This document shows positions 8,722-31,672 of a stretch of DNA of 64,000 nucleotides, piece after piece. Source of the stretch: Rhodospirillaceae bacterium (lineage in GTDB: Bacteria > Pseudomonadota > Alphaproteobacteria > UBA6615); assembly GCA_018667335.1 (NCBI GenBank), contig JABIVD010000032.1, positions 1 through 64,000 on the forward strand. Reading direction: 5' to 3'. The number at the start of each line of letters is the position of its first letter. The first letter of the stretch is position 1. The notes under the pieces are model-generated. The model had not been told where the DNA came from. It did no database searches and saw nothing but the letters and a program-made list of their open reading frames with translations. The position numbers and the translations under genes are program-made.

Positions 8722-9657
8722 CTAGAACTTCACCATGTCGCCGCCCTTGAGATCGAGGATCTCACGGGCTTCGTCCGGCGTCGCAACTTCCAACGACAGG
8801 TCTTCGACGATCCGGCGGATCTTCGCGACCTGCTGGGCGTTGGAATCAGCCAGCTTGCCCTTGCCGATGTAGAGCGAATCTTCCAGGCCGACGCGCACGC
8901 TGCCGCCCAACAAGGCCGACTGGGTGACGAAGTTCATCTGGTGACGGCCCGCGCCCAGCACGGAGAAGACATAGTCGTCGCCGAACAGCTTGTCGGCGGT
9001 CTCCTTCATGTGCATCAGATGCGCAAGGTCGGCGCCGATGCCGCCCATGATGCCGAAGATGAACTGCAGGAAGATCGGTCCCTTCAGGCGGCCCTGATTG
9101 TACCAGTAGGCCGTGTTGTAGAGATGGCTGACGTCGTAGCACTCATGCTCGAACTTCACCCCGCGCTTATCGTGCAGCTCGGTGATGATGTATTCCATCT
9201 GCTTGAACGTGTTGGTGAAGATGAAGTCGTCGGTCATCTCCAGGTACGGCTTCTCCCAGTCGTACTTCCATTTGTCGTAGCGTCCGGCCAGGCCGAAGAT
9301 GCCGAAGTTCATCGAGCCCATGTTGAACGAGGTGACTTCCGGCTCGGCAACGACGGCTGCCGCGATGCGCTCGTCGACGGTCATGCCGAGGCCACCGCCG
9401 GTGGTGATGTTCACGACCGCGTCGGTGTTCTGCTTGATACGGGGCAGGAACTCCATGAACACGTCCGGGTCCGGCGTCGGCTTGCCGTTCTCCGGGTCGC
9501 GGGCATGAAGATGGATGATCGAAGCGCCGGCTTCGGCGGCCTCGATCGAGGCCTGTGCGATCTCGTCCGGCGTGATCGGCAGATTGTCCGACATGGTCGG
9601 TGTGTGGATCGCGCCCGTGATTGCGCACGAAATGATGACTTTGGTTTGTTTCGCCAT
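8722..9657 (-). CDS. BKACE family beta-keto acid cleavage enzyme (3-keto-5-aminohexanoate cleavage-like, DUF849)
   Basis: A 311-aa TIM-barrel enzyme that condenses a beta-keto acid with acetyl-CoA to give acetoacetate and a new acyl-CoA. The N-terminal 'VIISCAITGAIHTP' and the zinc-binding 'SIIHLHARDPENGKPTPD' motif (HLH) are diagnostic, as are 'VNITTGGG' and the C-terminal 'VRVGLEDSLYIGKGKLA'. The specificity of BKACE members varies widely and cannot be set here. It is probably the first gene of a leftward unit with the SMP-30 gene. Candidate operator palindromes lie about 90 bp upstream. Confidence 0.9.
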   Translation of the reverse strand: MAKQTKVIISCAITGAIHTPTMSDNLPITPDEIAQASIEAAEAGASIIHLHARDPENGKPTPDPDVFMEFLPRIKQNTDAVVNITTGGGLGMTVDERIAAAVVAEPEVTSFNMGSMNFGIFGLAGRYDKWKYDWEKPYLEMTDDFIFTNTFKQMEYIITELHDKRGVKFEHECYDVSHLYNTAYWYNQGRLKGPIFLQFIFGIMGGIGADLAHLMHMKETADKLFGDDYVFSVLGAGRHQMNFVTQSALLGGSVRVGLEDSLYIGKGKLADSNAQQVAKIRRIVEDLSLEVATPDEAREILDLKGGDMVKF

Positions 9658-13082: not shown

Positions 13083-14060
13083 ATGAAACTGGTAACATTC
13101 ACCGCTGGTGGAAGTGCGGCGCGCGTTGGCGCGTTGAGCGAAGACGAAACGCGTGTATTCGATCTCGCGGCGGCTGACAATCAGCCCTATTTCCAGACCA
13201 TGCTGGACCTGATCGAGGCCGGTGATCCGGCTGTGGCCCGGGCGCGTGAAATCGTCGCTGCAGCAGGCGACAACACAGGTGGTGGCGCCGTGTTTGCGTT
13301 CGCGGATGTGGAGCTTCTAACGCCGGTCCCACAGCCACCTCAAATACGTGATTTTTTGTGCTTTGAGAGGCACTTGCTGAATTCTTTTGAGATGTTAAGA
13401 AAGAAGAAGGCGCAGGCTGAGCCCGACCCCGAAGAGGCGCTAAAGCGCTTCGAGGCAGAGGGCGCGTTTGCGGTCCCGCAGATCTGGTACGACCAGCCGC
13501 TTTTCTACAAGCCGAGCCGCCTCGGCGTGATCGGCACCGGCACCGATGTCATCTGGCCGTTCTTCTCGGAAATGCTGGATTACGAGATGGAGTTCGGCTG
13601 CTGGCTGGGCAAGGGCGGCAAGGATGTCGACCCCAAGGATGCGACGGACATGATCTTCGGCTATTCGATCTTCAACGATATCTCGGCGCGCGACACCCAG
13701 GCCCATGAGATGCCGGCCGGCTTCGGGCCCGGCAAGGGCAAGGATTTCGACACCGGCAACATTATCGGCCCCTGCATTGTCACCGCCGACGCGTTCGACC
13801 CCTACGACGCCGAGTTGATCGTGCGGATCAACGGTGAGGAGCGCTCGCGCGGCAATTCGGGCGAGATGTATCACAAGTTCGAGGACTGCATCGCCCACAC
13901 GTCGCGCGCCGAGACCGTGTTCCCGGGTGAGTTCTTCGCCTCGGGGACCGTTGGCTGGGGCTGTGGTCTCGAGCATGACAAATACCTCGAAGACGGCGAT
14001 GTCATCGAACTCGAGGTGACGGGGATCGGCATCCTCAAGAACAAGGTGGTCAAGCAGTAG
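13083..14060 (+). CDS. Fumarylacetoacetate hydrolase family protein
   Basis: A 325-aa FAH-fold hydrolase or decarboxylase. The N-terminal domain (residues 1-75) has the common 'MKLVTFTAGGSAARVGAL' start. The catalytic C-terminal domain has 'LDYEMEFGCWLGK' (metal-binding Glu pair), 'GYSIFNDISARDTQAHE' and 'KDFDTGNIIGPCIVT'. GGGGGA precedes the ATG, after a 6-bp hairpin (GGCCGG / CCGGCC). A stretch at about 13339-13408 encodes conserved residues with AT-rich and rare codons (TTA, AGA, AGG, TCT), unlike the rest of the gene. It probably cleaves a C-C bond of a ring-opened or keto-acid product. Confidence 0.88.
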   Translation: MKLVTFTAGGSAARVGALSEDETRVFDLAAADNQPYFQTMLDLIEAGDPAVARAREIVAAAGDNTGGGAVFAFADVELLTPVPQPPQIRDFLCFERHLLNSFEMLRKKKAQAEPDPEEALKRFEAEGAFAVPQIWYDQPLFYKPSRLGVIGTGTDVIWPFFSEMLDYEMEFGCWLGKGGKDVDPKDATDMIFGYSIFNDISARDTQAHEMPAGFGPGKGKDFDTGNIIGPCIVTADAFDPYDAELIVRINGEERSRGNSGEMYHKFEDCIAHTSRAETVFPGEFFASGTVGWGCGLEHDKYLEDGDVIELEVTGIGILKNKVVKQ

Positions 14061-14201: not shown

Positions 14202-15383
14202 ATGGACGAAATTTTCATTCAGAACGACGACCAACGCGCAATTCTGGATTCGGTGCGGCGCTTTGTGGAAGAAGAAGTCACGCCGCGCGCCGCCGAACTC
14301 GATGCGCAGAAGGATCCTGAGGATGCATTTTCCTGGGAAATCGTCGAGGCAGCGGACGCATTCGGGTTGCGGACCATGACCCTGTCCGAGGAGATGGGCG
14401 GCATGGGTGTCGATTCCACAACCACCGCCATGGTGGTCGAGGAACTCGCCCGTGGCGATCTGGGGATTTCGGTGGTTTTCGCCCAGACTCTGAAGATTGC
14501 GGCGATCATGGAGAAGGCGCTCAACGACGATCAGAAGGCCCGTGCGCTCGTCCCGTTCGTCGAGGATCCGCGCGCCGTCCTGTCCATCTGCATCACCGAG
14601 CCGGACAGCGGTTCGAACGGCGTATTGCCATACTCGGCCCCACTCAAGACAAATGCGAAAAAGGTCGAGGGCGGCTGGGTCGCGAACGGAATGAAGCAAT
14701 TCATTTCGAACTCGAACCGCTCACGCTTTTTCCTCGTTTTCATGCAGACGGATCCATCGAAGCCGATGACAGACGGGGTGTCGTGTTTCCTTTTGGAGCG
14801 CGGCCATCCGGGTTTCACCGTCGGGCGGGTGCACGACAAGATGGGCGAGCGGCTGGCCAACAATTCCGAGCTCATTTTCACCGACTGCTTCATTCCCGAC
14901 GAGAATCTGGTCGGTGAAGTTGATATGGGCTTCAAGACGCTGGGTACCTTCATGCCGTCGAGCAACGCCTATGCCGCGGCCAGCATTCTGGGCGTCGCGG
15001 TGTCCCTGTACGAGAAGTCGCTCGATTGGGCTCAGACCCGCGTGCAGGGCGGCAAGCGCCTGATCGAGCATGACGGGATTAGGGCACAGATCGCAGAAAT
15101 GAAAATGCTCATTGATGCTTCGCGGGCCTATACCCATCTGGCGACGGATTGCGCCGACAATCAGGAGGATGGATGGGATCCGACGCTCGGCGCGCTGCCC
15201 AAGGCGATGGCCTCCTAGGCGGCCTGGAAGATTGCGACCTGGACCCTCGAGATCCACGGCGGCCACGGCTACATGAAGGAAGCCGGCGTTGAGAAGCTCG
15301 TTCGCGACGCGGCCGCATTCCTGCATTCCGACGGCGTTAACCGTACGCTGTTCCTGCGCTCGGCCAACTTCCTGGGCTGGTAG
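14202..15383 (+). pseudogene. Acyl-CoA dehydrogenase, interrupted by an in-frame TAG
   Basis: FAD-dependent acyl-CoA dehydrogenase gene, 393 sense codons if the stop is ignored, exactly the length of its tandem paralogue. Codon 339 (15216-15218) is TAG where the paralogue has CAG (Gln). The same frame then continues for 55 codons with full similarity ('GGHGYMKEAGVEKLVRDAAA') to a TAG at 15383. The truncated 338-aa product lacks the Glu at codon 364 that corresponds to the catalytic base of this family. A single C-to-T change explains it. The rest of the gene shows no other damage, so the loss is recent, or the base is a sequence error. Confidence 0.85.
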
Positions 15384-15485: not shown

Positions 15486-16667
15486 ATGGACGAAATTTTC
15501 ATTCAGACAGAAGATCAGCGCGCAATCCTTGAATCGGTACGCCGCTTCGTCGAAGAGGAAGTCACGCCGCGCGCGGCTGAACTCGATGCGCAGGTTGATC
15601 CCGAGGACAGCTTCTCCTGGGAGATCGTCGAGGCGGCCGACCGGATGGGCCTGCGGACCATGAGCCTGTCTGAAGAATATGGCGGCATGGACACCGACAT
15701 GCTGACCACCGCGATGGTTATCGAGGAACTTGCGCGTGGCGACCTTGGTATCTCGGTCGTCTTCGCCCAGACCCTCAAAATTGGCAAGCATATGGAACGG
15801 GTGCTCAACGAGGAGCAGCGTGCGCGCACCCTGATCCCGTTCCGCGATGACCCACGCGCGATCCTCAGTATTTGCGGGACCGAGCCAGAAAACGGCTCCA
15901 ACGGTATCGTCGGCTACCCCGCGCCCTATACGACGCGTGCGGTGAAGACCGAGGGGGGCTGGATCGCGAACGGGATGAAGCATTTCATCTCGAACTCAAA
16001 CCGGTCGCGCTTCTTCCTGGTGCATATGCAGACCGATCATGAAAAATCGATGCTCGACGGGGCGACCTGCTTCCTGCTCGAACGCGGGCATCCGGGGTTC
16101 ACGGTGGGGCGTGTCCACGACAAGATGGGCGAGCGGCTGGCCAACAATTCGGAGCTGCTGTTTACCGATTGCTTCATCCCCGACGAAAACGTGGTCGGCG
16201 AGGTCAACGAGGGACACGTCGTCCGGCGTACGTTCGGCCCGTCGAGCAACATCTTCGCGGCCTGCAGCATTCTTGGCGTCGCCGTCGCCTGTTACGAGAA
16301 GTCGCTCGACTGGGCGCAGACGCGCATCCAAGGCGGCAAGCGGTTGATCGATCATGACGGTATCCGGGCCCAGATCGCCGAGATGAAGATGCTGATCGAC
16401 GCTTCGCGGTCATATACCCATCGTGCGGCATGGCTCGCGGACAACCGGGAGCAGGGCTGGGACATGTCTCTGGGTTCGTTGCCCAAGGTCATGGCCTCGC
16501 AGGCGGCGTGGCAGGTCGCGACCTGGACCCTCGAGATTCACGGCGGCCACGGTTACATGAAGGAAGCGGGCGTGGAGAAGCTGGTGCGCGACGCCGCCGC
16601 ATTCCTGCACTCCGACGGGGTCAACCGCGCCTTGCTGCTGCGCGCTGCGAATTTCATCGACACATAA
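15486..16667 (+). CDS. Acyl-CoA dehydrogenase
   Basis: Intact 393-aa member of the acyl-CoA dehydrogenase family, which oxidises an acyl-CoA to the 2-enoyl-CoA and passes electrons to ETF. Visible are the all-alpha N-terminal domain, the FAD/substrate strand 'ILSICGTEPENGSNGIVGYP', the beta domain 'NRSRFFLVHMQTD', and the C-terminal helices with 'GGHGYMKEAGVEKLVRDA', where Glu364 is the expected catalytic base. It is roughly 70 % identical by eye to the broken copy upstream and has the same start context, so ATG 15486 was chosen over ATG 15483. The pair is a tandem duplication. Confidence 0.92.
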   Translation: MDEIFIQTEDQRAILESVRRFVEEEVTPRAAELDAQVDPEDSFSWEIVEAADRMGLRTMSLSEEYGGMDTDMLTTAMVIEELARGDLGISVVFAQTLKIGKHMERVLNEEQRARTLIPFRDDPRAILSICGTEPENGSNGIVGYPAPYTTRAVKTEGGWIANGMKHFISNSNRSRFFLVHMQTDHEKSMLDGATCFLLERGHPGFTVGRVHDKMGERLANNSELLFTDCFIPDENVVGEVNEGHVVRRTFGPSSNIFAACSILGVAVACYEKSLDWAQTRIQGGKRLIDHDGIRAQIAEMKMLIDASRSYTHRAAWLADNREQGWDMSLGSLPKVMASQAAWQVATWTLEIHGGHGYMKEAGVEKLVRDAAAFLHSDGVNRALLLRAANFIDT

Positions 16668-16764: not shown

Positions 16765-17739
16765 ATGGCGAAGTGGCAATACACCAAGGGTCTGCATGAG
16801 GTCGGCAACGGGCTTTACGCCTATCTGCTGCCCGATGGCGGCTGGGGGTGGTCGAATGCGGGCCTGATCGTCGACGGCGAGGAGACGGTGCTGATCGACA
16901 CGCTGTTCGATCTGCCGCTGACCCGGGACATGCTCGCAACCATGCGCGACGCGGTGCCGGCAGCCAAGGATATCGGCCGGCTGATCAACACCCACGCCAA
17001 CGCCGACCATGTCTGGGGCAACCAGCTGGTGAAGGATGCGGAAATCATCGCCTCGACGGGCTGTGCGGAGGAATTCGACCATTTCCCGCCGAGCCGGCTC
17101 GAGGAGATGATGGCGAACGCCAAGAATCTGGGTGTTCTGGGCGAATTTCTTGATCATTGTTTTGCGCCGTTCGACTTCTCCGGCATTGAGCTGACCCCGC
17201 CGACGACGACCTTCGATGACCGGATGAGCCTGACCTGCGGTGACCGGGAGATCGAGCTCTACAATGTCGGCCCGGCGCACACCCGCGGCGATATCCTGAC
17301 CCACCTGCCGGGCGACCGGCTGATCTTCACCGGCGACATCATCTTCAATGGCGGCCATCCGGTGATCTGGGACGGCCCGATCTCGAACTGGCAGAAGGCC
17401 TGCGACATCATCCTGTCCCTCGACGCCGACGTGATCGTGCCGGGGCACGGACCGGTCACGGACAAGGCCCATGTGCGCGTCTTCAAGGGCTATCTCGACT
17501 ATATCGAGGCCGAGACACGCAAATGCTTCGATGCAGGGCTGTCGGAGTGGGACGCGGCGTGTGAGATATCGCTCGCAGACTACGACACGTGGGGTGACGC
17601 AGAGCGGTTCATCGGCAATGTCTACGCACTCTACCGGGAGTTCCGAGATGACGGCAGCGAGCCGGAAGTGATGCCGGTGTTCGAGGAAATGGCGCGGTTC
17701 CACAAGGACGTGATTCTGCCGCGCCTTGCAGCTGGTTAA
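16765..17739 (+). CDS. MBL-fold metallo-hydrolase
   Basis: A 324-aa metallo-beta-lactamase-fold protein. The metal site reads NTHANADHVWGNQLV, with Asn-Ala replacing part of the usual HxHxDH. Further ligands are visible as 'VGPAHTRGDILTHLPGDRL' (His), 'FTGDIIFNGGHP' (Asp) and 'VIVPGHGPVTDKAH' (His). Members of this variant group include hydrolases with quinoprotein-type or thioester-related contexts; no function is assigned. The gene follows the second acyl-CoA dehydrogenase by 97 nt on the same strand. About 208 bp of non-coding DNA separates it from the giant adhesin gene. Confidence 0.82.
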   Translation: MAKWQYTKGLHEVGNGLYAYLLPDGGWGWSNAGLIVDGEETVLIDTLFDLPLTRDMLATMRDAVPAAKDIGRLINTHANADHVWGNQLVKDAEIIASTGCAEEFDHFPPSRLEEMMANAKNLGVLGEFLDHCFAPFDFSGIELTPPTTTFDDRMSLTCGDREIELYNVGPAHTRGDILTHLPGDRLIFTGDIIFNGGHPVIWDGPISNWQKACDIILSLDADVIVPGHGPVTDKAHVRVFKGYLDYIEAETRKCFDAGLSEWDAACEISLADYDTWGDAERFIGNVYALYREFRDDGSEPEVMPVFEEMARFHKDVILPRLAAG

Positions 17740-17947: not shown

Positions 17948-20900
17948 ATGGCACGACGGCGCGGCAAACGCGGGGACGACCATCTTGTCGGCACGAGTGG
18001 GCGCGACGATATCGACGGTCGCGACGGCGATGACACGATCATCGGTGGTGCGGGCAGCGACAGGCTGAAGGGTGGTCGCGGCGACGACACGATCAAAGGC
18101 GGATCGGGCAATGACCGGATCGATGGTGGGTCAGGCGACGATGCGATCCGCGGCGGCTCCGGCAACGACTACATCAAGGCAGGTTCGGGCGACGACACGG
18201 TCAACGGCGGTTCTGGCAACGACCGAATTTCCGGCGGCTCGGGCGACGACAAAATCCGTGGCGGCTCCGGAGATGACCGTATCGACGGTGGTTCTGGCGA
18301 TGATGATATCCGGGGTGGTTCCGGCAACGACCACATCAAGGCAGGCACGGGCGACGATGTTGTCCGCGGTGGATCGGGCGACGACCACATCGACGGTGGC
18401 GCGGGGGATGATGCCCTGAAGGGCGGATCTGGCGACGACGTTCTGAATGGTGGTTCCGGCGACGATATCCTGAAGGGCGGTTCGGGCGAAGATATCCTGA
18501 TTGGTGGTGCTGGCGACGATGTCCTGAAGGGCGGGTCGGGCAACGACATTCTTATTGGCGGGTCGGGCGACGACAAACTCCGGGGTGGCGACGGCGACGA
18601 TATCCTGATCGGCGATGAGCTCGGCTATGGCGGTGGTTCCGGCTCGGGTTCCGGGCGCGGAAGCGGCCATCACGGCAAAAAGGGCAAGGGCTCCGGTTCC
18701 GGTTCCGGTAGCGGGCACGGCAGCGGCCATCATGGCAAGAAGGGCCGGGGTTCCGGCTCGGGCCGTGGGTCGCATCACGGGCGCGGCTCGGGTAGCGGGT
18801 CTGGGTCGCATTGGGGGTCGGGCTCGGGCGGCGCCGACGTCACCTTCAATGACTATCTCGATGGCGGCACCGGGTCGGATTACGTCTATGGCGGCCAGGG
18901 CGACGACAGAGGCGTCTGGAGCTTCACGGAGAACATCGGTGAGACCGACGCCTATGACGGCGGCCGGGGTTTCGACACGCTTGTTCTTAAACTGACGGCG
19001 GCTGAATTCACGGATGCGGATGTGCAGGCCGAACTGGCGGCGCTGGACGCGTTCATTGCGGCGAATGCGAACCCGTGGAGCGACCACGGCCCGGTGTTCA
19101 CCTTCGACGCGCTGGGCGCGACGCTGCATGTCCAGGATTGGGAAGATTACCGGGTGAAAATTGTCGGGGGACCGGCGAACAACGCTCCCGTCGCGATCGA
19201 TGATTTCGGCACGACCGACGAGGACAGCGTCCTCCTGATCACCGATCCGCTGGCGGGTCTGCTGGCGAACGACAGCGACACCGACAATCTGGATGTGATT
19301 TCGGTCACCGGCTTCGATGCGCTGAGCATCCTGGGCGCGACGGTCGTCATGAATACCGACGGCACCTACAGCTACGACGCCACGGGTCTGCTGGACAGCC
19401 TCGCGGTTGGTGAGAGCGCCGTAGATACATTCACCTACACGATCGCCGATCTGGTGGGTGCGACGGACACGGCCACGGTGACTATCACCGTGACGGGTGT
19501 GAACGACGCCCCGATACTCACGCCCGGCGGCGACACAACTGGCACAGTCGATGAAGACGGCGTCGATGCGCCGACGACGGTCTCCGGAGACCTGGACTCA
19601 ACCGATGTAGACAACGGCGCGACGGCGGCTTGGTCCGTTCAGGGCGGCGGCGCCGGTGTCTATGGAGACTTGTCTGTCGATGCCAGCGGCACATGGACCT
19701 ACACTCTGAACAACGGCGCGGCCAATGTTCAGGCGCTGGCGGCCAACGAATCCCATAACGATGTGTTCATGGTTGTGGTGACCGACGATCAGGGCGCGAC
19801 GGACACCGAGACGGTCACGGTGACGGTCACCGGTACGAACGATGATCCGTTTATCACGGCCGGCGGAGAGGTCACGGGCGCGGTCGATGAAGACGGCATT
19901 GATGCGCCGACGACGGTCTCCGGCGATTTGGACTCCACCGATCTCGACAACGGTGCGACGGCGGCCTGGTCTGTCCAGGGTGGCGGTGCGGGCACCTTTG
20001 GAGACCTGTCTGTCGATGCCAACGGCACCTGGACCTACAACCTACGGAACGGTGACGCCAACGTTCAGGCCCTGTCTGCGACCGAGAGCCACAACGAAGT
20101 GTTCACCGTCGTCGTGACCGACGATCAGGGCGCGACGGACATGCAGCAGGTGACCGTCACGGTGATGGGGACCAACGATGCGCCGGAGATCGGCTTCGAT
20201 GCCGGCAACGATGCCGGCACGGTGGTCGAGGATGACGCGACCAACGCTGTCTCGGGTCAGCTCACTGGTAATGATGTCGACAACAATGCGGCCCTGACCT
20301 GGTCCGTCGATGGTGGTGGTTCTGGTGCTTACGGCGCGCTCACTGTCGATGCCGCGGGCGCGTGGACCTACACGCTCGACAACGGGACGCCCGCGCTCGA
20401 GGACCTCGACAGCGGCGAGACCGCGACCGAGACGTTCAATGTGACGGTCACAGACGATTTCGGAGCGACCGACACCCAGGCGATCAACGTCACCATCGAC
20501 GGCAACACCGACAACGTCGCGCCGGTTGCTGCGGATGATGCCATCACCGGCGACGAAGACACGGTTATCTCCGGCGACGTGCTGGCCGACAATGGTGCCG
20601 GCGTGGACAGCGATGCGGACGGAGACGCGCTGACAGTATCGCTGGTCTCGGATGTTGCGAACGGCACCTTGCTGCTGAACGGCGACGGGACGTTCGATTA
20701 CACGCCGGATGCGGACTTCAGCGGGACGGACAGTTTCACCTACGCGGTCTCCGACGGTAACGGCGGGACGGACACGGCCACGGCAACCATTACCGTCGAC
20801 CCGGTGAACGATGCGCCAGATGCTGTGGATGACGCGTTCACGACGGACGAGGATGTGCTCGTCTCCGGCAATGTGCTGGCGGACAACGGTTCGGGTGTGG

Positions 20901-23900
20901 ACAGCGATGTCGACGGCGATGATCTGACAGTCACGCTGCTGTCCCCCCCTGCGAACGGCATGGTGGTGCTGAACACTGACGGCAGCTTTGATTACACGCC
21001 ATACCCGGACTTCAACGGGACGGACGAGTTCACCTACGAGGTCTCCGACGGCAACGGCGGAACCGACGTGGGTACGGCGACAGTAACGATCGATCCGGTC
21101 AACGACGCGCCTGAGGCAGCCAGCGATTCAACGGCGACGATTGAAGACACCGGTGTCTCGGGTGTGCTGGTCGCAGCCGACATCGACAGTCCGTCGCTGA
21201 CCTACACGATCACGACCCCGCCGACCCACGGCGCCATCACGTCGTTCGATCCTGCGACGGGTGCTTATACCTACGAGCCGGACCCCGATTACAACGGTCC
21301 GGATTCACTGCAGTTCACCGCGACCGACGGTCAACTCATCTCGAATGTCGCGACGGTCGACCTCACGATTGTTCCTGTGAACGATGCGCCCGTTGCGCAG
21401 GGCGATACCGCCTCGGGCGACGAAGATACGGTGATCTCCGGCGACGTGCTGGCAGACAACGGCAACGGCATTGATGACGATGTCGATGGCGACGCTCTGA
21501 CGGTGTCGCTGGTTGGGGATGTGTCGAACGGCGCGCTGGTGCTGAACTCCGATGGCAGTTTCGACTACACGCCGGACCTCAACTTCCAGGGCACGGATAC
21601 GTTCACCTACGAGGTCTCGGACGGTAACGGCGGAACCGATACAGCGACGGCGACGATTACGGTCGATCCCGTCAATGACGCGCCTTTGGCGACCAGCGAT
21701 TCGGCAGCGACGAATGAAGACACCGGCTTGTCTGGTGTGCTGGTCGCCGCCGACATCGACAGCCCGTTGCTGACCTACACGATCACGACGCCGCCGACCC
21801 ACGGCATCATTACGTCGTTCGACGCGGCGACGGGCGCCTACACCTACCAGCCGGACGCCGATTACAACGGCCCTGACTCCCTGCAGTTCACGGCGACCGA
21901 CGGGCAGCTCACCTCGAACATCGCAACGGTCGCCCTGACGATTGTCCCGGTGAACGACGCGCCGGTTGCGGTCGGTGATACGGCGGCGACGAATGAAGAC
22001 AGCAGCGTGTCTGGCATCCTGGTCGCGAGCGACATCGACAGCCCCTCGCTGACCTACACGATCACCGCCCCGCCAACCCACGGTGCCATCACGTCGTTCG
22101 ATCCTGCGACGGGTGCTTACACCTACGAGCCGGACCCCGACTACAACGGTCCGGATTCACTGCAGTTCACCGCGACCGACGGTCAACTCACCTCGAATGT
22201 CGCGACGGTCGACCTCACGATTGTTCCGTTGAATGACGCGCCGATTGCGCAGGACGACGCCATCACCGGCGACGAAGATACGGTTATTTCCGGTGACGTT
22301 CTGGCAGACAACAGCAACGGCATAGATGGCGATACCGAAGGCGACAGTCTGACGGTCTCGCTGGTAAGTGACGTGTCGAACGGCGCGCTGGTGCTGGGTT
22401 CAGACGGAACGTTCGACTACACCCCGGATGCTGACTTCCAAGGCACGGATACGTTCACTTACGAAGTCTCCGACGGCAACGGCGGAACGGACACCGCGAC
22501 GGCGACGATCACAGTCGATCCCGTCAACGATGCTCCCGTTGCGCAGGACGATAGTGTCTCGGGTGACGAAGATACGGTGATCTCCGGTGACGTTCTGGCA
22601 GACAACGGCAACGGCATAGATGACGATGTCGATGGCGACAGTCTGACGGTGTCGCTGGTTGGGGATGTGTCGAACGGCGCGCTGGTGCTGAACTCCGATG
22701 GCAGCTTCGACTACACGCCGGATGCGAACTTCAACGGCACAGACAGCTTCACCTATCAGATTGATGACGGGAACGGCGGGACGGACATTGCGACGGCGAC
22801 GATTACGGCCGATCCCATCAATGACGCGCCTTTGGCGACCAGCGATTCGGCAGCGACGAATGAAGACAGCAGCGTGTCGGGCGTCCTGGTCGCGGCCGAC
22901 ATCGACAGCCCGTTGCTGACCTACACGATCACGACGCCGCCGACCCACGGCACCATCACGTCGTTCGATCCGGCGACGGGCGCCTACATCTACCAGCCTG
23001 ATTCCGATTACAACGGCCCGGACACCCTGCAGTTCACGGCGACCGACGGGCAGCTCACCTCGAACATCGCCACAATCGACCTGACGGTTGTCCCGGTGAA
23101 TGACGCGCCGATTGCAGCCAGCGATTCAGTGTCGACGAACGAAGACAACGGCGTATCGGGTGTGCTGGTCGCGGCCGACATCGACAGCCCCTCGCTGACC
23201 TACACGATCACGACGCCGCCGATCCACGGCAGCATCACGGCCTTCGACCCGGCGACCGGCGCCTACACCTACGAGCCGGATCCCGACTACAACGGTCCGG
23301 ACTCCCTGCAGTTCACCGCGACCGACGGTCAGCTCACTTCGAATGTCTCCACGATCGACCTGACGATTGTCCCGGTGAACGACGCCCCGGTGGCGGCCGA
23401 CGATGCTCTCTCTACGGATGAGGACACGCTCGTCTCCGGGAACGTGCTGGCCGATAACGGGTCGGGTGTGGACGGCGATGCCGAAGGCGACGCGTTGACG
23501 GTGTCGCTGGTCTCCGATGTTGTGAACGGCACGCTGGTGCTGAACGGCGACGGCACGTTCGACTACACACCGGATGCGGACTTCAACGGCACGGACGCGT
23601 TTACCTACCAGGTCGACGACGGCAACGGCGGGGCCGAGACGGCGACGGCGACGATCACCGTCGATCCGGTCAACGACGCGCCGGTGGCCGTCGACGACAG
23701 CTTCGTCGTCGACGAGGATACGGCGATCACGGGCAACCTGTTCGTTGACAACGGCAACGGTGTGGACAGCGACGTCGACAATGTGAACGTGCGGACGGCG
23801 GCGGGGACATTCGCGACCGCCTCGGGCGGTTCGGTGGAAATTACGGTGAATGGGGACTTCACCTATACGCCGCCGGCGAATTTCGGCGGCTCGGATTCTT

Positions 23901-26900
23901 TCGAGTACACGCTGACCGATATCGGCGGCGCGACCGATACGGCGACGGCCACGATCACCGTCAACCCGATAAATGATGCGCCGGTGGGGCTGGATGACGC
24001 GGTCTCCGGCGATGAAGACACGGTGATCTCGGGCGATGTGCTGGCCGATAACGACAATGGCGCCGATAGCGATATCGAAGGGGATTCCCTGACCGTCTCG
24101 CTGGTGGGCGATGTCTCGAACGGGACGCTGGAACTGAACGGTGACGGGACCTTCGACTACACGCCGGACGCGAACTTCTTCGGGACCGACAGCTTCACCT
24201 ATGAAGTCTCGGACGGGAACGGCGGCACGGACACGGCGACGGCCACGATCACGGTAAACAACGTCAATGACGCGCCGGTTGCCGCGGATGACGTCTTCGA
24301 AGTATCCAGCTTGATCGATGTGTTTTCCGCCTTGTGGCAAAGCGACACGTCGGTTCTGTCATTCCAGGATGAAACCGGTGAATTCACGTCGTTCGACCAG
24401 AATACCGGCGGCTTCCGCTCGCGCGATATCTCCATCACGGATTTCGACGGAGACGGCGACAATGACGCATTCGTTGCCGCGGAAAACGATGATTCGCGCC
24501 TGCTCCTGAACGACGGTGACGGTAATTTTTCTCTTCAAGCGACATTCACTGGCGATGTTCTCGCCAGTGCCGTCGGCGACTTCGATGGTGACGGCGACAT
24601 CGATCTGGCGCTCGGCCGTGATGCTGGCGAGCAGAACACGGTTTTACTCAACGATGGCAATGGCGCGTTTTCGGTGGGCCAGAGTCTTGGCTCGGGCGTG
24701 CGGCGTGACATGGAGGTCGGAGACATCAACGGCGACGGGATCGACGATCTTGTCACGCTCGGCGACAGCATTGTCGCTTTCATCGGAAACGGCGACGGGA
24801 CCTTCGATTCACCCTGGAGCTGGAACACCGAGGGTCGGGATATCCGCGATATCGCGCTCGGGGATGTCGATGGGGATGGCGATCTCGATCTCGTCTCGAC
24901 CAACTTTAGTGTTAACGAGTCTGCGTTCTATTTCCGGAACACGGGTGACGGATCTTTCGCCGCCCCCCAAACCATTTTCGGTGGCCAAACTGTCAGTATT
25001 TCCGTCGATCTCGGAGATATGGACGGGGATGGCGATGCCGATCTCGCTTTTGGTACCGGCACTTCGGGGGCGGTGCGCCTTTTTCGTTTGAAGAACGACG
25101 GGAGCTTCGCTCAGTTCGATAGCGTGAGCGTGGGTTCCGATGTTTCGATAACCGAACTCGTCGACATCAACGGGGACGGGCTGCTGGACATCGTGCAGGC
25201 CGGCGAATCAGGCTCGTTCATCATTGAACGGAATGAGTCCGGAGATTTCAACAGTGCCGAGATGGTCAGCGCCGGTCCCGTCAGGGCACTTGGCCTCGGC
25301 GATCTTAACGGGGACGGATTGCTCGGCGCGCGGGAAGATGAGGTCTTCAATCTCACCGCCGAAGAACTTGTGGCGAACGACACCGATCCTGATGGCGACA
25401 CACTCGAGGTCACGGCCGTCGACGGCGTAAGTGCCCTGGGCGCCATCGTGACCTTCGACGCGGTCACCGGCGAGATTTCCTACGATTCCACTTCGACGGC
25501 TGCCGTTCAGGCATTGCTTGAAGGCGAGACGATCAACGACAGCTTCACCTACACCGTCTCGGACGGCAATGGCGGCACCGATACGGCGGTCGTCACGATT
25601 GTTGTGCAGGGCGCGAATGAAGCCCCGGTCGTTTCGTTCTCAACTGAAACCTCGAATGTGGTCGAGGAGGAATCGGGTGCGTTGGCGGACATCGCGATCT
25701 CGGATGGCGACAGCACGAAATCGACGGTCACCCTCAGGGTCAACGCCGGTGAACTCACACTTGGGGCCACGACCGGGCTCACCGTTGTGGACGGTGATGG
25801 CAGTGATGGCACGCTGACCGTTTTTGGTGAGATCGCGGACATCAACGCGGCTCTGACTGACATCGACTACCAGGGCAACCTGGATTTCTTCGGTACCGAC
25901 GGCCTCACCGTCACCGCGACGGACTCCGACGGGACGACGGGCGTGGGGCGCCATGATATCGAGGTCGAGGGGGTCAATGATGCGCCGTCGGCCATCGATG
26001 ACGCGATCCTGCGCATCGAATCGACCCTCGATGTCTTTACCCCCCAGTGGGACAGCGCGAACACGAAGGTTTCGCTCCAGAACCTGGACGGAACATTCAC
26101 GACGGACACCCAGAACACACGCGGGAACGAATCCTGGGATGTCACCATCGCGGATTTTGACGGCGATGGTGACCAGGATGCCTTCATCGCTGCCGAAGAT
26201 GGTTCGTCGCAGGTTCTGCTCAACGACGGCGATGGCAGTTTTGTATTGGGGCAGGAGATCGACGGCGCCCTGTTTGCCAGCGCCACGGGAGACTTCGATG
26301 GTGATGGGGACATCGATCTCGTCGTGGGAAGCGAAATAGGGGAATCGAACGAAGTCCTGCTGAACGACGGCAGTGGTGTGTTTACGGCGCATCAAAGCCT
26401 GGGCTCGCTGAGGAGCCGAGATATCGAAGTCGCGGACGTCAACGGCGACGGCATCGACGATATTCTTGTGTCGACCCTTACGAGAGGCCAGGTCTTCGCG
26501 GGGGACGGCGATGGAAACTTTGCCCAGATTTCGGACTGGAGTCTCGGGTCCGTTCCTCAGGCCTGGGACATATCGCTGGGCGATGTCGACGGCGATGGCG
26601 ATCTGGATCTTATCGCCGGGAATGTCGTTACAGATGTATCCGGGCAAGCGACAGCGCGCCTGTTTCTCAATTCCGGTGACGGTACGTTCACGGGGCCTTC
26701 GTCGGCGTTCACATACGGCGGCGGCATCCTGTCCCTGGATCTCGGGGATATCGACGGCGATGGCGATGCCGACGTGGTGATTGGCCGGACCTTTGGGGAA
26801 GGTGACTCCATTGTTCTCCGTTCCAACGGGAACGGGAGTTTCACCGAGATTCAAGAATTGGATTCGAGCGGGGTTGGTGTTCACGAAACCCAGCTCGTCG

Positions 26901-29900
26901 ATATGAACGATGATGGCGTTCTCGACGTTGTCCAGGCTGGCATTTCGGGAACCTTCCTCTGGGATGGCAACGGCGACGGCACCTTCGGCGCGCGCCAGGC
27001 CGTGAACATCGGCGAGGCCAGATCTGCCGGCATCGGCGATTTCGACCTGCATGGCGAACCGCTAGTTGCGCGCGAGGACGCGCCTTTCGTGATCGCCGGG
27101 GATGACCTCCTGGCAAACGATCTGGACGTCGATGGGGATGCCCTAACTGTTTCCGGACTCGATTCCGACGGAATCCTGACGGCCACGTCCGCGAACGGCG
27201 CGACGGTGACGCTCGATGCGCTCAGCGGGGACATCACCTACGACCCGACCGCCGCGACGGCCGTTCAGGCGTTGGCCGACGGGGAAACGCTCTTCGATAC
27301 CTTCACCTACACGATATCCGACGGCAATGGCGGCACCGACAGCGCGACCGTGACGGTCGAAGTGGCCGGGGCCAACGATGCGCCGGTGGCGTTCGACGAT
27401 TCCGCTGAGACGGACGTGGACACGATCGTGTTCGGCAATGTCTTGGCGGACAACGGCCACGGCGCGGACAGCGACGTGGATGTGAGCGACATCCTGACGG
27501 TTTCTTTGGTCAGCGATGTGGTCAACGGCACGCTGGTCCTGAAGGCGGACGGCGGCTTCAACTACACGCCGGACACGGATTTCTTCGGGACGGACACGTT
27601 CACCTATCAAATCTCCGACGGCAATGGCGGCACGGACACAGCGACGGCGACGATCACGGTCAACGAGCCGAATAACGTACCAGAGGCGATGGACGATTCC
27701 GTCTCGGGCGACGAAGATACGGTGATCTCCGGCGATGTTCTGTCCAACGACAACGATCGGGACGGCGACGAATTGACGGTGACGCTGACCACGGATGTCC
27801 GAAATGGCGCGTTGGTCCTGAACGCCGACGGAACTTTCGATTACACGCCAGATGCGGACTTCTTCGGCACGGACTCATTCACCTACGAGGTCTCGGACGG
27901 GAACGGCGGAACAGATACCGCGACGGCGACCATCACTGTGAACGCGGTGAACGATGCGCCGGTCGCGGCAAGTGATTCTGCCGCGACGAACGAAGACGTT
28001 GGCGTCTCGGGCGTCCTGGTTGCGGCCGACATCGACAGCCCCTCGCTGACCTACACGGTCATCACGCCGCCGACACACGGCACCATCACGTCGTTCGACG
28101 CGGCGACAGGGGCTTACACCTACCAGCCGGACCCGGACTACAACGGGCCGGACTCCCTCCAGTTCACCGCGACTGACGGGCAACTCACCTCGAACGTCGC
28201 GACGGTCGACCTGACAATTGTTCCCGTTAACGACGCGCCGGATATCTCGTTCGTAAGTGGCGAAGACGCTGGCACGGTGACCGAGGACGACGCGACGAAC
28301 ACGGTGTCGGGGCAGCTCGACGGCAATGATGTGGACACTGGAGCCGTCCTGACATGGTCGGTCGACGGCGGCGGCGTTGGAACCCACGGCACGCTGATGA
28401 TCGATGCGTCGGGCGAATGGACCTACACCCTCGATAATGCGACGCCTGCGCTCGATGACCTCGACACGGGCGAGATCGCCATCGAGACCTTCGATGTGAC
28501 GGTCACCGACGAGCACGGTGCGTCCGACACCCAGACCGTCACGGTCACCATCGACGGCAACACCGACAATATCGCGCCGGTCGTGGTGGACGACAGCTTT
28601 GGTGGTGGCGAGGGCATCGGCGGGACGGGCGTATTCGACCTGTCGTCGCTCGACGGGACCGATGGCTTCCGCCTCGACGGCGTCACGGCGGGCGACCGAA
28701 CTGGCTACTCGGTCGCGGGCGCCGGCGATGTGAACGGCGATGGCATCGACGATGTGATCGTGGGGGCCTATTGCGCTGGGAACAATGGAAGCTTTTCAGG
28801 CTCCAGCTATGTGGTGTTCGGGACGTCGTCGGATGCGACGGGTGGGACGGGCGCGCTCGACCTGTCGTCGCTGAACGGGACGAACGGTTTCCGCCTTGAT
28901 GGCGCCGCAGTGAGCGACTTCTCTGGCCGCGCGGTGTCTGGCGCGGGCGATGTGAATGGCGACGGGATCGACGACCTGATTGTCGGCGCGCCGTTTGCCG
29001 ACCCGAACGGTCAAAGTTCCGGTTCCAGTTATGTGGTGTTCGGGACATCGTCGGATGCGACGGGCGGGACGGGCGCACTGGACCTGTCATCGCTGGACGG
29101 GACGAACGGCTTCCGCCTCGACGGCGTTGCGGGAAACGAACGATCGGGCGCAAGGGTATCAGACGCAGGCGATGTGAATGGCGACGGGATCGACGATCTG
29201 ATCGTCGCCGCGTACTTCGCCGATCCCAATGGAGGCGATTCGGGTTCCAGCTATGTGGTGTTCGGGACGTCGTCGGATGCGACGGGTGGGACAGGTGCAC
29301 TGGCTCTGTCGTCGCTGGATGGGACGAACGGTTTCCGTCTCGACGGCGTCGCGGCGGCTGATCGGTCGGGTGTCTCGGTTTCGGGCGCCGGTGATGTAAA
29401 CGGCGACGGCATCGACGATTTGATCGTCGGCGCGTTCTTGACCGACCAGAACGGTTCCGGTTCCGGTTCCAGCTATGTGGTGTTCGGGACGTCGTCGGAT
29501 GCGACGGGCGGGACGGGCGCATTGGAGCTGTCGTCACTGGACGGGACGAACGGCTTCCGCCTGGACGGTGTCGCGTCGGGTGACTTCTCTGGCCGATCGG
29601 TGTCGGGCGCGGGGGATGTGAACGGCGACGGTATCGACGATCTGATCGTCGGTGCGTACAGCGCTGACCCGAGCGGCGCCGATTCGGGTTCGAGTTATGT
29701 GGTGTTCGGAACATCGTCGGATGCGACGGGTGGCACGGGTGTGCTTGATCTGTCTTCGCTGGACGGGAGCAACGGCTTCCGCCTCGACGGCGCCGCAGCA
29801 ACTGATCGGTCCGGGCTTTCGGTCTCGGGCGTGGGGGATTTGAACGGCGACGGTTTCGACGATCTCATCATCGGGGCCTGGGGTACTGACGTGAACGGTA

Positions 29901-31672
29901 CCGATACGGGTTCCAGCTACGTGGTGTTCGGGGCATCTGCCGATACGACGGGTGGAACCGGCATTCTGGCTCTTGCATCACTGGACGGAGACAATGGTTT
30001 CCGTCTCGACGGTGCTGCAGCTGGTGACTTCTCCGGTCGATCGGTATCCGGCGCCGGCGACGTGAACGGCGACGGCCTGGACGATCTCATCGTCGGGTCA
30101 TTTGGTGCCGACCCGAATGGGTCAGTGTCGGGGTCCGCCTATGTGGTGTTCGGTGCCGAGATGGTCCTGGACGAGGACTCAGCAGTGGATCTCGATCTTC
30201 TGGCAAACGACAGCGACCCGGATGGCGATGCCATCGAGATCGACGCATCTGCGCTTCCGGCGACGAGTGTCCTGGGTGCGACACTGAGTTTGAATCTGGA
30301 CGGGTCGGTGAACTACGACCCAACCGGTTCCGCGACGCTCCAGGCGCTCCTGGACGGCCAGACCGCGAACGACACGTTCACCTATACCGCGTCGGACGGC
30401 AATGGCGGCTTCGACACAGCCACCGTGACGGTCACGGTGGCGGGTGTGACCGATCTGCCCGACGCCGAAGACGATTCAATCGTCATCGATGAGGAAGAGA
30501 CGATTGTCATTGATGTGCTTGCCAATGACAGCCATCCGGAAGGACGCGTTCTTACGCCAATCGCTTCCACGAATCCTTTGAACGGATTCCTGACCTTCGA
30601 TGCGTTTACCAACATGTACACCTACACGGCGAACCTGGATTTCGTTGGCACAGACAGCTTCGACTACACCATTGCCGATGATGCGGGTGGTCTGGATACG
30701 GCCACGGTGAACATCACCGTCAACCCGGTCAATGACGCTCCCGTGTTCGGTGGAGACCATCAGGTGAGCGTGAACCAGAGCGGGCTGGTGGCTCTCTCGA
30801 CGACAGACCTGACGGCTTTGGACCCCGACGATGTGGACGCGGACGTGACGTTTGTCCTGAATGGTTCCCCCACGGACGGCAGCCTGACGAAGGGTGGCGT
30901 GGCGCTGTCGGACGGTCAGAGCTTCACGCTGGCGGACATCGTCAACGGCGACATCGCCTACGATCACAGTGGTGCGGCCGGTAGCTCGGATTCCTTCGTC
31001 GTGGAACTGTTCGATGACGAACTTGCGACCGGCGGGACCGCGACGATCGATATCGATGTCGTGTCTCCGCCCACGCCGCCGGTTGCGGTGACGGACAATT
31101 ACGTCATCTCGAACACCGTTAACGTGTTCATGGATCTGATCGCCAATGACACTGACGCCAACAATGACCCGCTGTCGCCGATCGCGTCGACCAACCCGGT
31201 GAATGGTTTCCTCGGGTTCGATGTTCTGTCGGAGACCTATTTCTATATTCCGACCGTCGGCTTCACCGGAACCGACAGCTTCACCTACACGATCACCGAC
31301 GGGAATGGCGGGTTCGATACCGCGACCGTGAATGTCTCGATCCTCGCAGATGGCGACCCGCTGCTTGGCACAGCATCCGACGAGGTGCTGCAGGGCAGCA
31401 GCCTCGATGATGATATGACCGGCGGCGGCGGCGACGACCTGTTCCAGTTCGACAACGGGGACGGTGCCGACACGATCACCGACTTCAGCGCCGGAGCGGG
31501 CACCGATGATCGGCTGGACGTGTCCGGGTTCGGCTTCACCGACCTCGCGGACCTTCTGGCGTCAACGAGTGATGCTGGCGCCGATACGGTGATCAGCCTG
31601 GACGCAGATGACAGCGTCACCCTGATCGGCATTCAGAAAGCCGACCTGCACGACGACGACTTCCTCTTCTAG
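17948..31672 (+). CDS. Giant RTX / VCBS / cadherin-like / FG-GAP adhesin, type I secreted
   Basis: A 4,574-aa, very Asp-rich protein. Order by residue: RTX nonapeptides 8-226; Gly/Ser/His/Lys linker 226-296; residual RTX-like region 297-409; four VCBS-type repeats 410-855; thirteen cadherin-like/tandem-95 repeats 856-2111; propeller 1, 2112-2460, inside a split repeat; another cadherin-like domain 2562-2680; propeller 2, 2680-3038, inside a split repeat; three repeats and a VCBS repeat 3147-3541; propeller 3, 3542-4071, inside a split repeat; three repeats to 4469; RTX-like type I secretion region 4469-4574 ending DDDFLF. It has no signal peptide. Expected role: calcium-dependent surface adhesion or biofilm matrix. 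No type I secretion genes are adjacent, and no LapA-type retention module is seen. Start GGGGAT-N3-ATG. Confidence 0.92.
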   Translation: MARRRGKRGDDHLVGTSGRDDIDGRDGDDTIIGGAGSDRLKGGRGDDTIKGGSGNDRIDGGSGDDAIRGGSGNDYIKAGSGDDTVNGGSGNDRISGGSGDDKIRGGSGDDRIDGGSGDDDIRGGSGNDHIKAGTGDDVVRGGSGDDHIDGGAGDDALKGGSGDDVLNGGSGDDILKGGSGEDILIGGAGDDVLKGGSGNDILIGGSGDDKLRGGDGDDILIGDELGYGGGSGSGSGRGSGHHGKKGKGSGSGSGSGHGSGHHGKKGRGSGSGRGSHHGRGSGSGSGSHWGSGSGGADVTFNDYLDGGTGSDYVYGGQGDDRGVWSFTENIGETDAYDGGRGFDTLVLKLTAAEFTDADVQAELAALDAFIAANANPWSDHGPVFTFDALGATLHVQDWEDYRVKIVGGPANNAPVAIDDFGTTDEDSVLLITDPLAGLLANDSDTDNLDVISVTGFDALSILGATVVMNTDGTYSYDATGLLDSLAVGESAVDTFTYTIADLVGATDTATVTITVTGVNDAPILTPGGDTTGTVDEDGVDAPTTVSGDLDSTDVDNGATAAWSVQGGGAGVYGDLSVDASGTWTYTLNNGAANVQALAANESHNDVFMVVVTDDQGATDTETVTVTVTGTNDDPFITAGGEVTGAVDEDGIDAPTTVSGDLDSTDLDNGATAAWSVQGGGAGTFGDLSVDANGTWTYNLRNGDANVQALSATESHNEVFTVVVTDDQGATDMQQVTVTVMGTNDAPEIGFDAGNDAGTVVEDDATNAVSGQLTGNDVDNNAALTWSVDGGGSGAYGALTVDAAGAWTYTLDNGTPALEDLDSGETATETFNVTVTDDFGATDTQAINVTIDGNTDNVAPVAADDAITGDEDTVISGDVLADNGAGVDSDADGDALTVSLVSDVANGTLLLNGDGTFDYTPDADFSGTDSFTYAVSDGNGGTDTATATITVDPVNDAPDAVDDAFTTDEDVLVSGNVLADNGSGVDSDVDGDDLTVTLLSPPANGMVVLNTDGSFDYTPYPDFNGTDEFTYEVSDGNGGTDVGTATVTIDPVNDAPEAASDSTATIEDTGVSGVLVAADIDSPSLTYTITTPPTHGAITSFDPATGAYTYEPDPDYNGPDSLQFTATDGQLISNVATVDLTIVPVNDAPVAQGDTASGDEDTVISGDVLADNGNGIDDDVDGDALTVSLVGDVSNGALVLNSDGSFDYTPDLNFQGTDTFTYEVSDGNGGTDTATATITVDPVNDAPLATSDSAATNEDTGLSGVLVAADIDSPLLTYTITTPPTHGIITSFDAATGAYTYQPDADYNGPDSLQFTATDGQLTSNIATVALTIVPVNDAPVAVGDTAATNEDSSVSGILVASDIDSPSLTYTITAPPTHGAITSFDPATGAYTYEPDPDYNGPDSLQFTATDGQLTSNVATVDLTIVPLNDAPIAQDDAITGDEDTVISGDVLADNSNGIDGDTEGDSLTVSLVSDVSNGALVLGSDGTFDYTPDADFQGTDTFTYEVSDGNGGTDTATATITVDPVNDAPVAQDDSVSGDEDTVISGDVLADNGNGIDDDVDGDSLTVSLVGDVSNGALVLNSDGSFDYTPDANFNGTDSFTYQIDDGNGGTDIATATITADPINDAPLATSDSAATNEDSSVSGVLVAADIDSPLLTYTITTPPTHGTITSFDPATGAYIYQPDSDYNGPDTLQFTATDGQLTSNIATIDLTVVPVNDAPIAASDSVSTNEDNGVSGVLVAADIDSPSLTYTITTPPIHGSITAFDPATGAYTYEPDPDYNGPDSLQFTATDGQLTSNVSTIDLTIVPVNDAPVAADDALSTDEDTLVSGNVLADNGSGVDGDAEGDALTVSLVSDVVNGTLVLNGDGTFDYTPDADFNGTDAFTYQVDDGNGGAETATATITVDPVNDAPVAVDDSFVVDEDTAITGNLFVDNGNGVDSDVDNVNVRTAAGTFATASGGSVEITVNGDFTYTPPANFGGSDSFEYTLTDIGGATDTATATITVNPINDAPVGLDDAVSGDEDTVISGDVLADNDNGADSDIEGDSLTVSLVGDVSNGTLELNGDGTFDYTPDANFFGTDSFTYEVSDGNGGTDTATATITVNNVNDAPVAADDVFEVSSLIDVFSALWQSDTSVLSFQDETGEFTSFDQNTGGFRSRDISITDFDGDGDNDAFVAAENDDSRLLLNDGDGNFSLQATFTGDVLASAVGDFDGDGDIDLALGRDAGEQNTVLLNDGNGAFSVGQSLGSGVRRDMEVGDINGDGIDDLVTLGDSIVAFIGNGDGTFDSPWSWNTEGRDIRDIALGDVDGDGDLDLVSTNFSVNESAFYFRNTGDGSFAAPQTIFGGQTVSISVDLGDMDGDGDADLAFGTGTSGAVRLFRLKNDGSFAQFDSVSVGSDVSITELVDINGDGLLDIVQAGESGSFIIERNESGDFNSAEMVSAGPVRALGLGDLNGDGLLGAREDEVFNLTAEELVANDTDPDGDTLEVTAVDGVSALGAIVTFDAVTGEISYDSTSTAAVQALLEGETINDSFTYTVSDGNGGTDTAVVTIVVQGANEAPVVSFSTETSNVVEEESGALADIAISDGDSTKSTVTLRVNAGELTLGATTGLTVVDGDGSDGTLTVFGEIADINAALTDIDYQGNLDFFGTDGLTVTATDSDGTTGVGRHDIEVEGVNDAPSAIDDAILRIESTLDVFTPQWDSANTKVSLQNLDGTFTTDTQNTRGNESWDVTIADFDGDGDQDAFIAAEDGSSQVLLNDGDGSFVLGQEIDGALFASATGDFDGDGDIDLVVGSEIGESNEVLLNDGSGVFTAHQSLGSLRSRDIEVADVNGDGIDDILVSTLTRGQVFAGDGDGNFAQISDWSLGSVPQAWDISLGDVDGDGDLDLIAGNVVTDVSGQATARLFLNSGDGTFTGPSSAFTYGGGILSLDLGDIDGDGDADVVIGRTFGEGDSIVLRSNGNGSFTEIQELDSSGVGVHETQLVDMNDDGVLDVVQAGISGTFLWDGNGDGTFGARQAVNIGEARSAGIGDFDLHGEPLVAREDAPFVIAGDDLLANDLDVDGDALTVSGLDSDGILTATSANGATVTLDALSGDITYDPTAATAVQALADGETLFDTFTYTISDGNGGTDSATVTVEVAGANDAPVAFDDSAETDVDTIVFGNVLADNGHGADSDVDVSDILTVSLVSDVVNGTLVLKADGGFNYTPDTDFFGTDTFTYQISDGNGGTDTATATITVNEPNNVPEAMDDSVSGDEDTVISGDVLSNDNDRDGDELTVTLTTDVRNGALVLNADGTFDYTPDADFFGTDSFTYEVSDGNGGTDTATATITVNAVNDAPVAASDSAATNEDVGVSGVLVAADIDSPSLTYTVITPPTHGTITSFDAATGAYTYQPDPDYNGPDSLQFTATDGQLTSNVATVDLTIVPVNDAPDISFVSGEDAGTVTEDDATNTVSGQLDGNDVDTGAVLTWSVDGGGVGTHGTLMIDASGEWTYTLDNATPALDDLDTGEIAIETFDVTVTDEHGASDTQTVTVTIDGNTDNIAPVVVDDSFGGGEGIGGTGVFDLSSLDGTDGFRLDGVTAGDRTGYSVAGAGDVNGDGIDDVIVGAYCAGNNGSFSGSSYVVFGTSSDATGGTGALDLSSLNGTNGFRLDGAAVSDFSGRAVSGAGDVNGDGIDDLIVGAPFADPNGQSSGSSYVVFGTSSDATGGTGALDLSSLDGTNGFRLDGVAGNERSGARVSDAGDVNGDGIDDLIVAAYFADPNGGDSGSSYVVFGTSSDATGGTGALALSSLDGTNGFRLDGVAAADRSGVSVSGAGDVNGDGIDDLIVGAFLTDQNGSGSGSSYVVFGTSSDATGGTGALELSSLDGTNGFRLDGVASGDFSGRSVSGAGDVNGDGIDDLIVGAYSADPSGADSGSSYVVFGTSSDATGGTGVLDLSSLDGSNGFRLDGAAATDRSGLSVSGVGDLNGDGFDDLIIGAWGTDVNGTDTGSSYVVFGASADTTGGTGILALASLDGDNGFRLDGAAAGDFSGRSVSGAGDVNGDGLDDLIVGSFGADPNGSVSGSAYVVFGAEMVLDEDSAVDLDLLANDSDPDGDAIEIDASALPATSVLGATLSLNLDGSVNYDPTGSATLQALLDGQTANDTFTYTASDGNGGFDTATVTVTVAGVTDLPDAEDDSIVIDEEETIVIDVLANDSHPEGRVLTPIASTNPLNGFLTFDAFTNMYTYTANLDFVGTDSFDYTIADDAGGLDTATVNITVNPVNDAPVFGGDHQVSVNQSGLVALSTTDLTALDPDDVDADVTFVLNGSPTDGSLTKGGVALSDGQSFTLADIVNGDIAYDHSGAAGSSDSFVVELFDDELATGGTATIDIDVVSPPTPPVAVTDNYVISNTVNVFMDLIANDTDANNDPLSPIASTNPVNGFLGFDVLSETYFYIPTVGFTGTDSFTYTITDGNGGFDTATVNVSILADGDPLLGTASDEVLQGSSLDDDMTGGGGDDLFQFDNGDGADTITDFSAGAGTDDRLDVSGFGFTDLADLLASTSDAGADTVISLDADDSVTLIGIQKADLHDDDFLF
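17969..18625 (+). repeat. N-terminal RTX (GGxGxDxU) calcium-binding repeat block
   Basis: About 22 nonapeptide-type units such as GGSGDDRIDGGSGDDDIRGG run without interruption over residues 8-226, in 27-nt steps. RTX repeats bind calcium in a parallel beta-roll. They are usually near the C-terminus of type I substrates. Here a long block lies at the extreme N-terminus and a short one at the C-terminus. Confidence 0.9.
18626..18833 (+). repeat. Low-complexity Gly/Ser/His/Lys linker
   Basis: Residues 226-296 are almost only Gly and Ser, with two copies of SGHHGKKG(K/R)GSGSG and further His pairs. About eight His and several Lys/Arg give a basic, metal-binding-looking segment inside an otherwise acidic protein. 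Confidence 0.85.
20515..24282 (+). repeat. Thirteen tandem cadherin-like/tandem-95 repeats of two subtypes
   Basis: Each unit ends in a (V/I)xPVNDAP-like motif. Subtype A (about 99 aa) carries DEDTVISGDVLADN and GTDTFTYEVSDGNGGTDT. Subtype B (about 93 aa) carries NEDxGVSGVLVAADIDSP, TYTITTPPTHG and ATDGQLTSNVAT. The order is A A B A B B A A B B A A A; the twelfth unit is a divergent A. Several copies are nearly identical at DNA level. Confidence 0.85.
24283..25330 (+). repeat. Beta-propeller 1 (seven VCBS-type FG-GAP blades)
   Basis: Seven calcium-loop motifs occur in order: DFDGDGDND, DFDGDGDID, DINGDGIDD, DVDGDGDLD, DMDGDGDAD, DINGDGLLD, DLNGDGLLG. The unit starts right after 'NDAPVAADD' and is followed by 'AREDEVFNLTAEELVANDTD', so it splits a cadherin-like repeat. 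Confidence 0.8.
25986..27060 (+). repeat. Beta-propeller 2 (seven VCBS-type FG-GAP blades)
   Basis: A paralogue of propeller 1 with loops DFDGDGDQD, DFDGDGDID, DVNGDGIDD, DVDGDGDLD, DIDGDGDAD, DMNDDGVLD and a degenerate DFDLHGEPL. It begins after 'NDAPSAIDD' and ends before 'AREDAPFVIAGDDLLANDLD', the same insertion point as propeller 1. Confidence 0.8.
28571..30160 (+). repeat. Beta-propeller 3 (seven integrin-alpha-type FG-GAP blades, exact 222-bp period)
   Basis: Seven copies of a 74-aa blade: SSLDGTNGFRLDG, SGRSVSGAGD, VNGDGIDDLIVGA, SGSSYVVFGTSSDATGGTG. The Gly codon of GFRLDG recurs at 28664, 28886, 29108, 29330, 29552, 29774 and 29996, exactly 222 bp apart. It is placed between 'APVVVDDSF' and 'DEDSAVDLDLLANDSD'. 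Confidence 0.85.
31354..31672 (+). other. Region encoding the C-terminal type I secretion domain
   Basis: Residues 4469-4574 carry 'GTASDEVLQGSSLDDDMTGG', GGDDLFQF, 'GADTITDFSAGAGTDDRLDV' and a hydrophobic-acidic end DDDFLF. This is the usual C-terminal target layout of RTX adhesins exported by type I systems. Confidence 0.75.

Follow-up and report, generated by a model that had tools for sequence, protein, structure and literature searches.

The acidic catalytic base of acyl-CoA dehydrogenases lies between helices J and K in the account of PMC5798300, and the position of the catalytic Glu in these enzymes is treated in passages of both PMC5798300 and PMC11659651. As regards premature stop codons, the relevant passages of PMC7918605 propose that many bacterial in-frame stops are read through, and they describe such stops as tending to last only about as long as polymorphisms within a population. 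The locus analyzed here carries a single in-frame TAG in the first of two tandem genes (copies A and B) that share domain order and length with the acyl-CoA dehydrogenase family (PF02771, PF02770 and PF00441; nearest solved structure by sequence, 1ukw).

The two genes were located in a 64 kb stretch of DNA from a marine-type alphaproteobacterium (64,000 nucleotides, hereafter the window), which lies on contig 17 of a 62-contig draft assembly with a genome of 3.55 Mb. A 16S search of this draft gave no match, but it also failed in 5 of 14 control genomes and is therefore no guide to the quality of the draft. The open part of copy A (14202-15218, plus strand) comprises 338 codons and the premature TAG at 15216-15218, which is codon 339 counted from the ATG at 14202. 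When this stop is read through, the frame continues over 15219-15383 and ends at a TAG at 15381-15383, giving 393 residues. Copy B (15486-16667, plus strand) is also 393 residues long, is 79% identical to copy A, has no stop inside and carries CAG at the codon matching the TAG. The sequence-only reading had reported this TAG opposite CAG and a frame running on to the length of the paralogue with everything else intact, and all of this was borne out: both codons are read in the assembly, the 54 codons beyond the TAG (followed by the original stop) match the family all along and are not a chance open frame, and no other lesion was found in copy A.

The domain content of the two proteins was also compared. 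Copy B and the read-through copy A exceed the cut-off for all three Pfam models. With the stop in place, copy A retains the N-terminal and middle domains (Acyl-CoA_dh_N and Acyl-CoA_dh_M) and part of the C-terminal one (Acyl-CoA_dh_1), whose score is 41.4 bits with the stop and 81.1 bits when read through; this last domain is complete only in the second case. None of the NCBIfam equivalogs scored above cut-off for either copy. Upstream of copy A lies a gene for a FAA-hydrolase (FAH) family protein (13083-14060, plus strand), which adjoins the dehydrogenase gene in 10 of the 10 related loci compared, and downstream of copy B lies a metallo-beta-lactamase-fold hydrolase gene (16765-17739, plus strand). 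A BKACE-family gene at 8722-9657 (minus strand), with a score of 524.7 against the NCBIfam cut-off of 430 for 3,5-dioxohexanoate:acetyl-CoA acetone transferase, shares a conserved cluster with DHDPS-like, amidohydrolase, FAH, acyl-CoA dehydrogenase and metallo-hydrolase genes. Further downstream, an open frame of 4574 residues (17948-31672, plus strand) presumably encodes a giant surface protein. It starts with what we take to be RTX-like repeats rich in glycine and aspartate and contains numerous repeated segments that resemble cadherin. The tetranucleotide CTAG is rare in the window (19 occurrences, versus 70 of GTAC and 291 of CATG), and the nonsense change in copy A creates one CTAG.

Codon 339 was examined in 84 distinct homologous places of at least 55% identity, obtained from a genome-contig search (79 loci) together with the loci of a whole-genome search; both window copies are included, partial rows were kept in the column counts, while one match below 55% identity was dropped, as were identical copies of a locus that occurred in two collections. 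At this column, 80 places have Gln, three have Glu and one, the window copy A, has a stop, so that no homologue ends at codon 339 in any of the other 83 places. L107, a locus at 56% identity that has a stop at column 92, contributes to the column counts but is absent from the tree. Within the family (24 genomes, 21 matches at E<=1e-150), a stop inside the gene was found only in the window copy A. The nearest relative, G005, shares with the window a collinear stretch of 8.8 kb, in which 80.7% of the nucleotides are identical, and its contig matches the record JABJEK010000068.1 (MAG SI074_bin10) in sequence and position. In this genome both copies are present, and codon 339 of copy A is CAG, the codon that the sequence-only reading had proposed to look for in sister strains.

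The residues lost beyond the stop were analyzed next to the solved structure. The sequence-only reading had taken Glu364 for the catalytic base, and the alignment does not agree with this assignment. Glu364 pairs with the Glu of the motif VEKL in 1ukw and is conserved in only 71 of the 84 places, the column otherwise holding A (6), S (5) and P (2). The motif YEGT is taken by us to be the site of the base Glu in 1ukw-like enzymes, and its Glu pairs with Asp377 (15330-15332), which is found in every one of the 84 places and in all six of the more distant homologues L023-L028 (38-40% identity). From this alignment, Asp377 probably occupies the catalytic base position in copies A and B, and this subfamily would thus have Asp (motif HSDG) where solved acyl-CoA dehydrogenases have Glu. 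A literature search on the catalytic residue returned no paper on this subfamily. Since Asp377 lies beyond the premature stop, it is absent from the truncated product, and the earlier claim that truncation removes the active-site carboxylate would still hold, through Asp377.

Selective constraint was quantified by Nei-Gojobori counts between the copies A of the window and of G005. For codons 1-338, dN was 0.069 and dS 1.303 (ratio 0.053), and for codons 340-393 they were 0.012 and 0.459 (ratio 0.027). The same two parts of copy B, compared with copy B of G005, gave ratios of 0.049 and 0.036. The 54 codons past the stop contain 13.5 synonymous and 1.5 nonsynonymous differences. Without constraint, 71-76% of the changes in these codons would be expected to be nonsynonymous, and a neutral frame would show two or fewer among 15 with a probability of about 1e-6 to 6e-6. 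So few nonsynonymous changes past the stop indicate that the frame of copy A was under selection until very recently. On the assumption that the tail evolved freely once the stop had appeared, the stop falls within the final 6-22% of the branch since G005 split off; the width of this range reflects which dS is taken and whether one or two changes are counted. Before the stop, 8 polarised amino-acid changes fall to copy A and 10 to the G005 copy, with 19 ambiguous, and therefore no sign of an earlier relaxation was seen in copy A; on the protein tree, its end branch is slightly longer than that of its sister (0.09 versus 0.063). A nonsense pseudogene should carry a disabling mutation absent from its homologues, as copy A does, and should also show relaxed constraint or further lesions, neither of which was detected on either side of the stop. 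Copy A would on these grounds be either "very young" or "not a pseudogene".

The fate of copy A was then compared across the genus in seven genomes, from G000 (the window genome) to G006. In G005 both copies are intact, and in G000 copy A carries the stop and copy B is intact. G002 has an intact copy B and, in the same place as the window copy A, a relic of copy A flanked by the FAH gene and copy B. This relic (L036:5001-5140; G002:C7, about 14589-14728) consists of codons 5-28 fused in a different frame to codons 370-393 and contains a TAA; the 96 bases after it align with the spacer between copies A and B of the window. Its large internal deletion, frameshift and TAA make it an event independent of the nonsense change in the window. 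In G001 and G004, copy B and the same neighbours were found and no copy A was detected at the locus, while in G003 (79% complete) and G006 (98%) neither copy was found, the best matches being about 60% identical. The decay or absence of copy A in sister species makes it look dispensable in the genus. No other genome of the family was found to have more than one copy. In the protein tree (76 of the 84 rows), copy A clusters with genes that other genera carry as single copies (support 92/92, unstarred), and copy B has a long branch. This arrangement points to copy A as the older type and to copy B as the diverged copy.

These results favor, with a probability of about 0.7, the reading of copy A as a very young nonsense allele of a dispensable tandem acyl-CoA dehydrogenase, possibly one still segregating in the population. 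It is supported by the constraint on both sides of the stop, the lack of a stop at this codon in any relative compared, and the independent decay or absence of copy A in sister species. A C-to-T change would have converted the Gln codon, conserved among homologues, to TAG. In consequence, translation would end at residue 338 with loss of the last 55 residues, Asp377 among them, the truncated product would be inactive or degraded, and the intact copy B may cover the need. Among the three options that the sequence-only reading had left side by side, recent loss is thus the favored one, sequence error in the wider form of error or polymorphism is its main rival, and readthrough gained no positive support.

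The main rival holds that the TAG is a wrong base, from sequencing or consensus, or an allele of a minority strain that the assembler chose, while most cells carry an intact gene. Because copy A shows no second lesion and no relaxation, a new stop and a wrong base look alike by sequence; the intact and constrained remainder of copy A fits an error or polymorphism, as does a draft in 62 contigs whose depth is unknown. Nevertheless, the genome does not look rich in errors: when 149 domain matches were inspected over their matched stretches, no stop was found in 61 ABC-transporter (PF00005), 63 short-chain dehydrogenase (PF00106) or 24 other acyl-CoA dehydrogenase C-terminal matches, copy A being the only one with a stop among the 149 (25 of them PF00441). 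Moreover, the change hits the very tandem copy that sister species also lost. This alternative is consequently regarded as unlikely, and the TAG is probably real in the cells. A misassembly between the tandem copies was discarded, since copy B has no TAG at this codon and the copies differ at many surrounding sites.

If the TAG were read through, whether by a near-cognate tRNA or by a suppressor tRNA that escaped detection, full-length protein would be made at a low level, and this would agree with the constraint that persists downstream of the stop. In-frame stops set out in PMC7918605 resemble that of copy A, both being a single TAG at a CAG codon with dN/dS well below 1 downstream, and the example given there is likewise a TAG/CAG polymorphism. 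However, the stops described in that source are common to two or more species, whereas the copy A stop was seen in one genome, and constraint predating the mutation accounts for the same pattern. A conserved programmed readthrough would keep its stop at the same position in relatives, and none of the other 83 places has one. Reassignment or suppression of TAG would be expected to come with a CUA tRNA and with either loss of RF1 or frequent TAG codons in frame. RF1 is present (513.2 bits, with the cut-off at 423.25), copy A holds the one stop among the 149 domain matches, and no CUA anticodon was found among the 41 tRNA matches of the draft genome, a set that is incomplete, with several expected anticodons missing; 39 of these anticodons were assigned by ARAGORN, and the other two were read by eye from alignments as CGT and CAC. 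With RF1 intact and no CUA tRNA found, recoding of the copy A TAG is unsupported, and readthrough appears very improbable. There seems a similarly slim chance that the TAG serves as a reversible or leaky low-expression switch, with readthrough keeping selection on the copy A C-terminus.

A pattern search for CUA anticodons gave 3 matches, against 9 for the reversed control pattern. One candidate suppressor tRNA, at C46:86682-86709, has a tRNA-like look, but neither ARAGORN nor Rfam finds a tRNA there. The sequence is presumably the 3' part of a tRNA-Arg(TCT), with a loop containing TCTAA, and the frame upstream of it is taken to be the end of a tyrosine integrase. Given this tRNA part and the integrase-like frame, the piece (L145, about 1480-1530; G000:C46, 86.7 kb) probably represents the remnant of an attachment site used by an integrated element. 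A group I intron in this tRNA was likewise rejected, the Rfam scan of L145 giving no match at E up to 0.1.

It is hardly credible that the 338-residue product does a job of its own, such as regulating copy B or serving as its inactive partner: two of the three Pfam domains remain whole and the third in part, but residues 339-393, the invariant Asp377 included, are gone, and none of the homologues ends where this product does.

A search of the literature on tandem duplicates, nonsense changes and gene loss found nothing on point, from which no claim of absence from print is made. The analysis corrects the assignment of the catalytic residue for the subfamily of copies A and B, from Glu364 to the probable base Asp377. 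The very young nonsense allele favored here would be an ordinary early step in losing a spare gene copy and changes no general picture. Taken across the genus, the locus offers a small, clear case of a tandem duplicate that appears to be lost by different routes, by a nonsense change in G000, by a deletion leaving a relic in G002 and by absence in G001 and G004, while remaining intact in G005.
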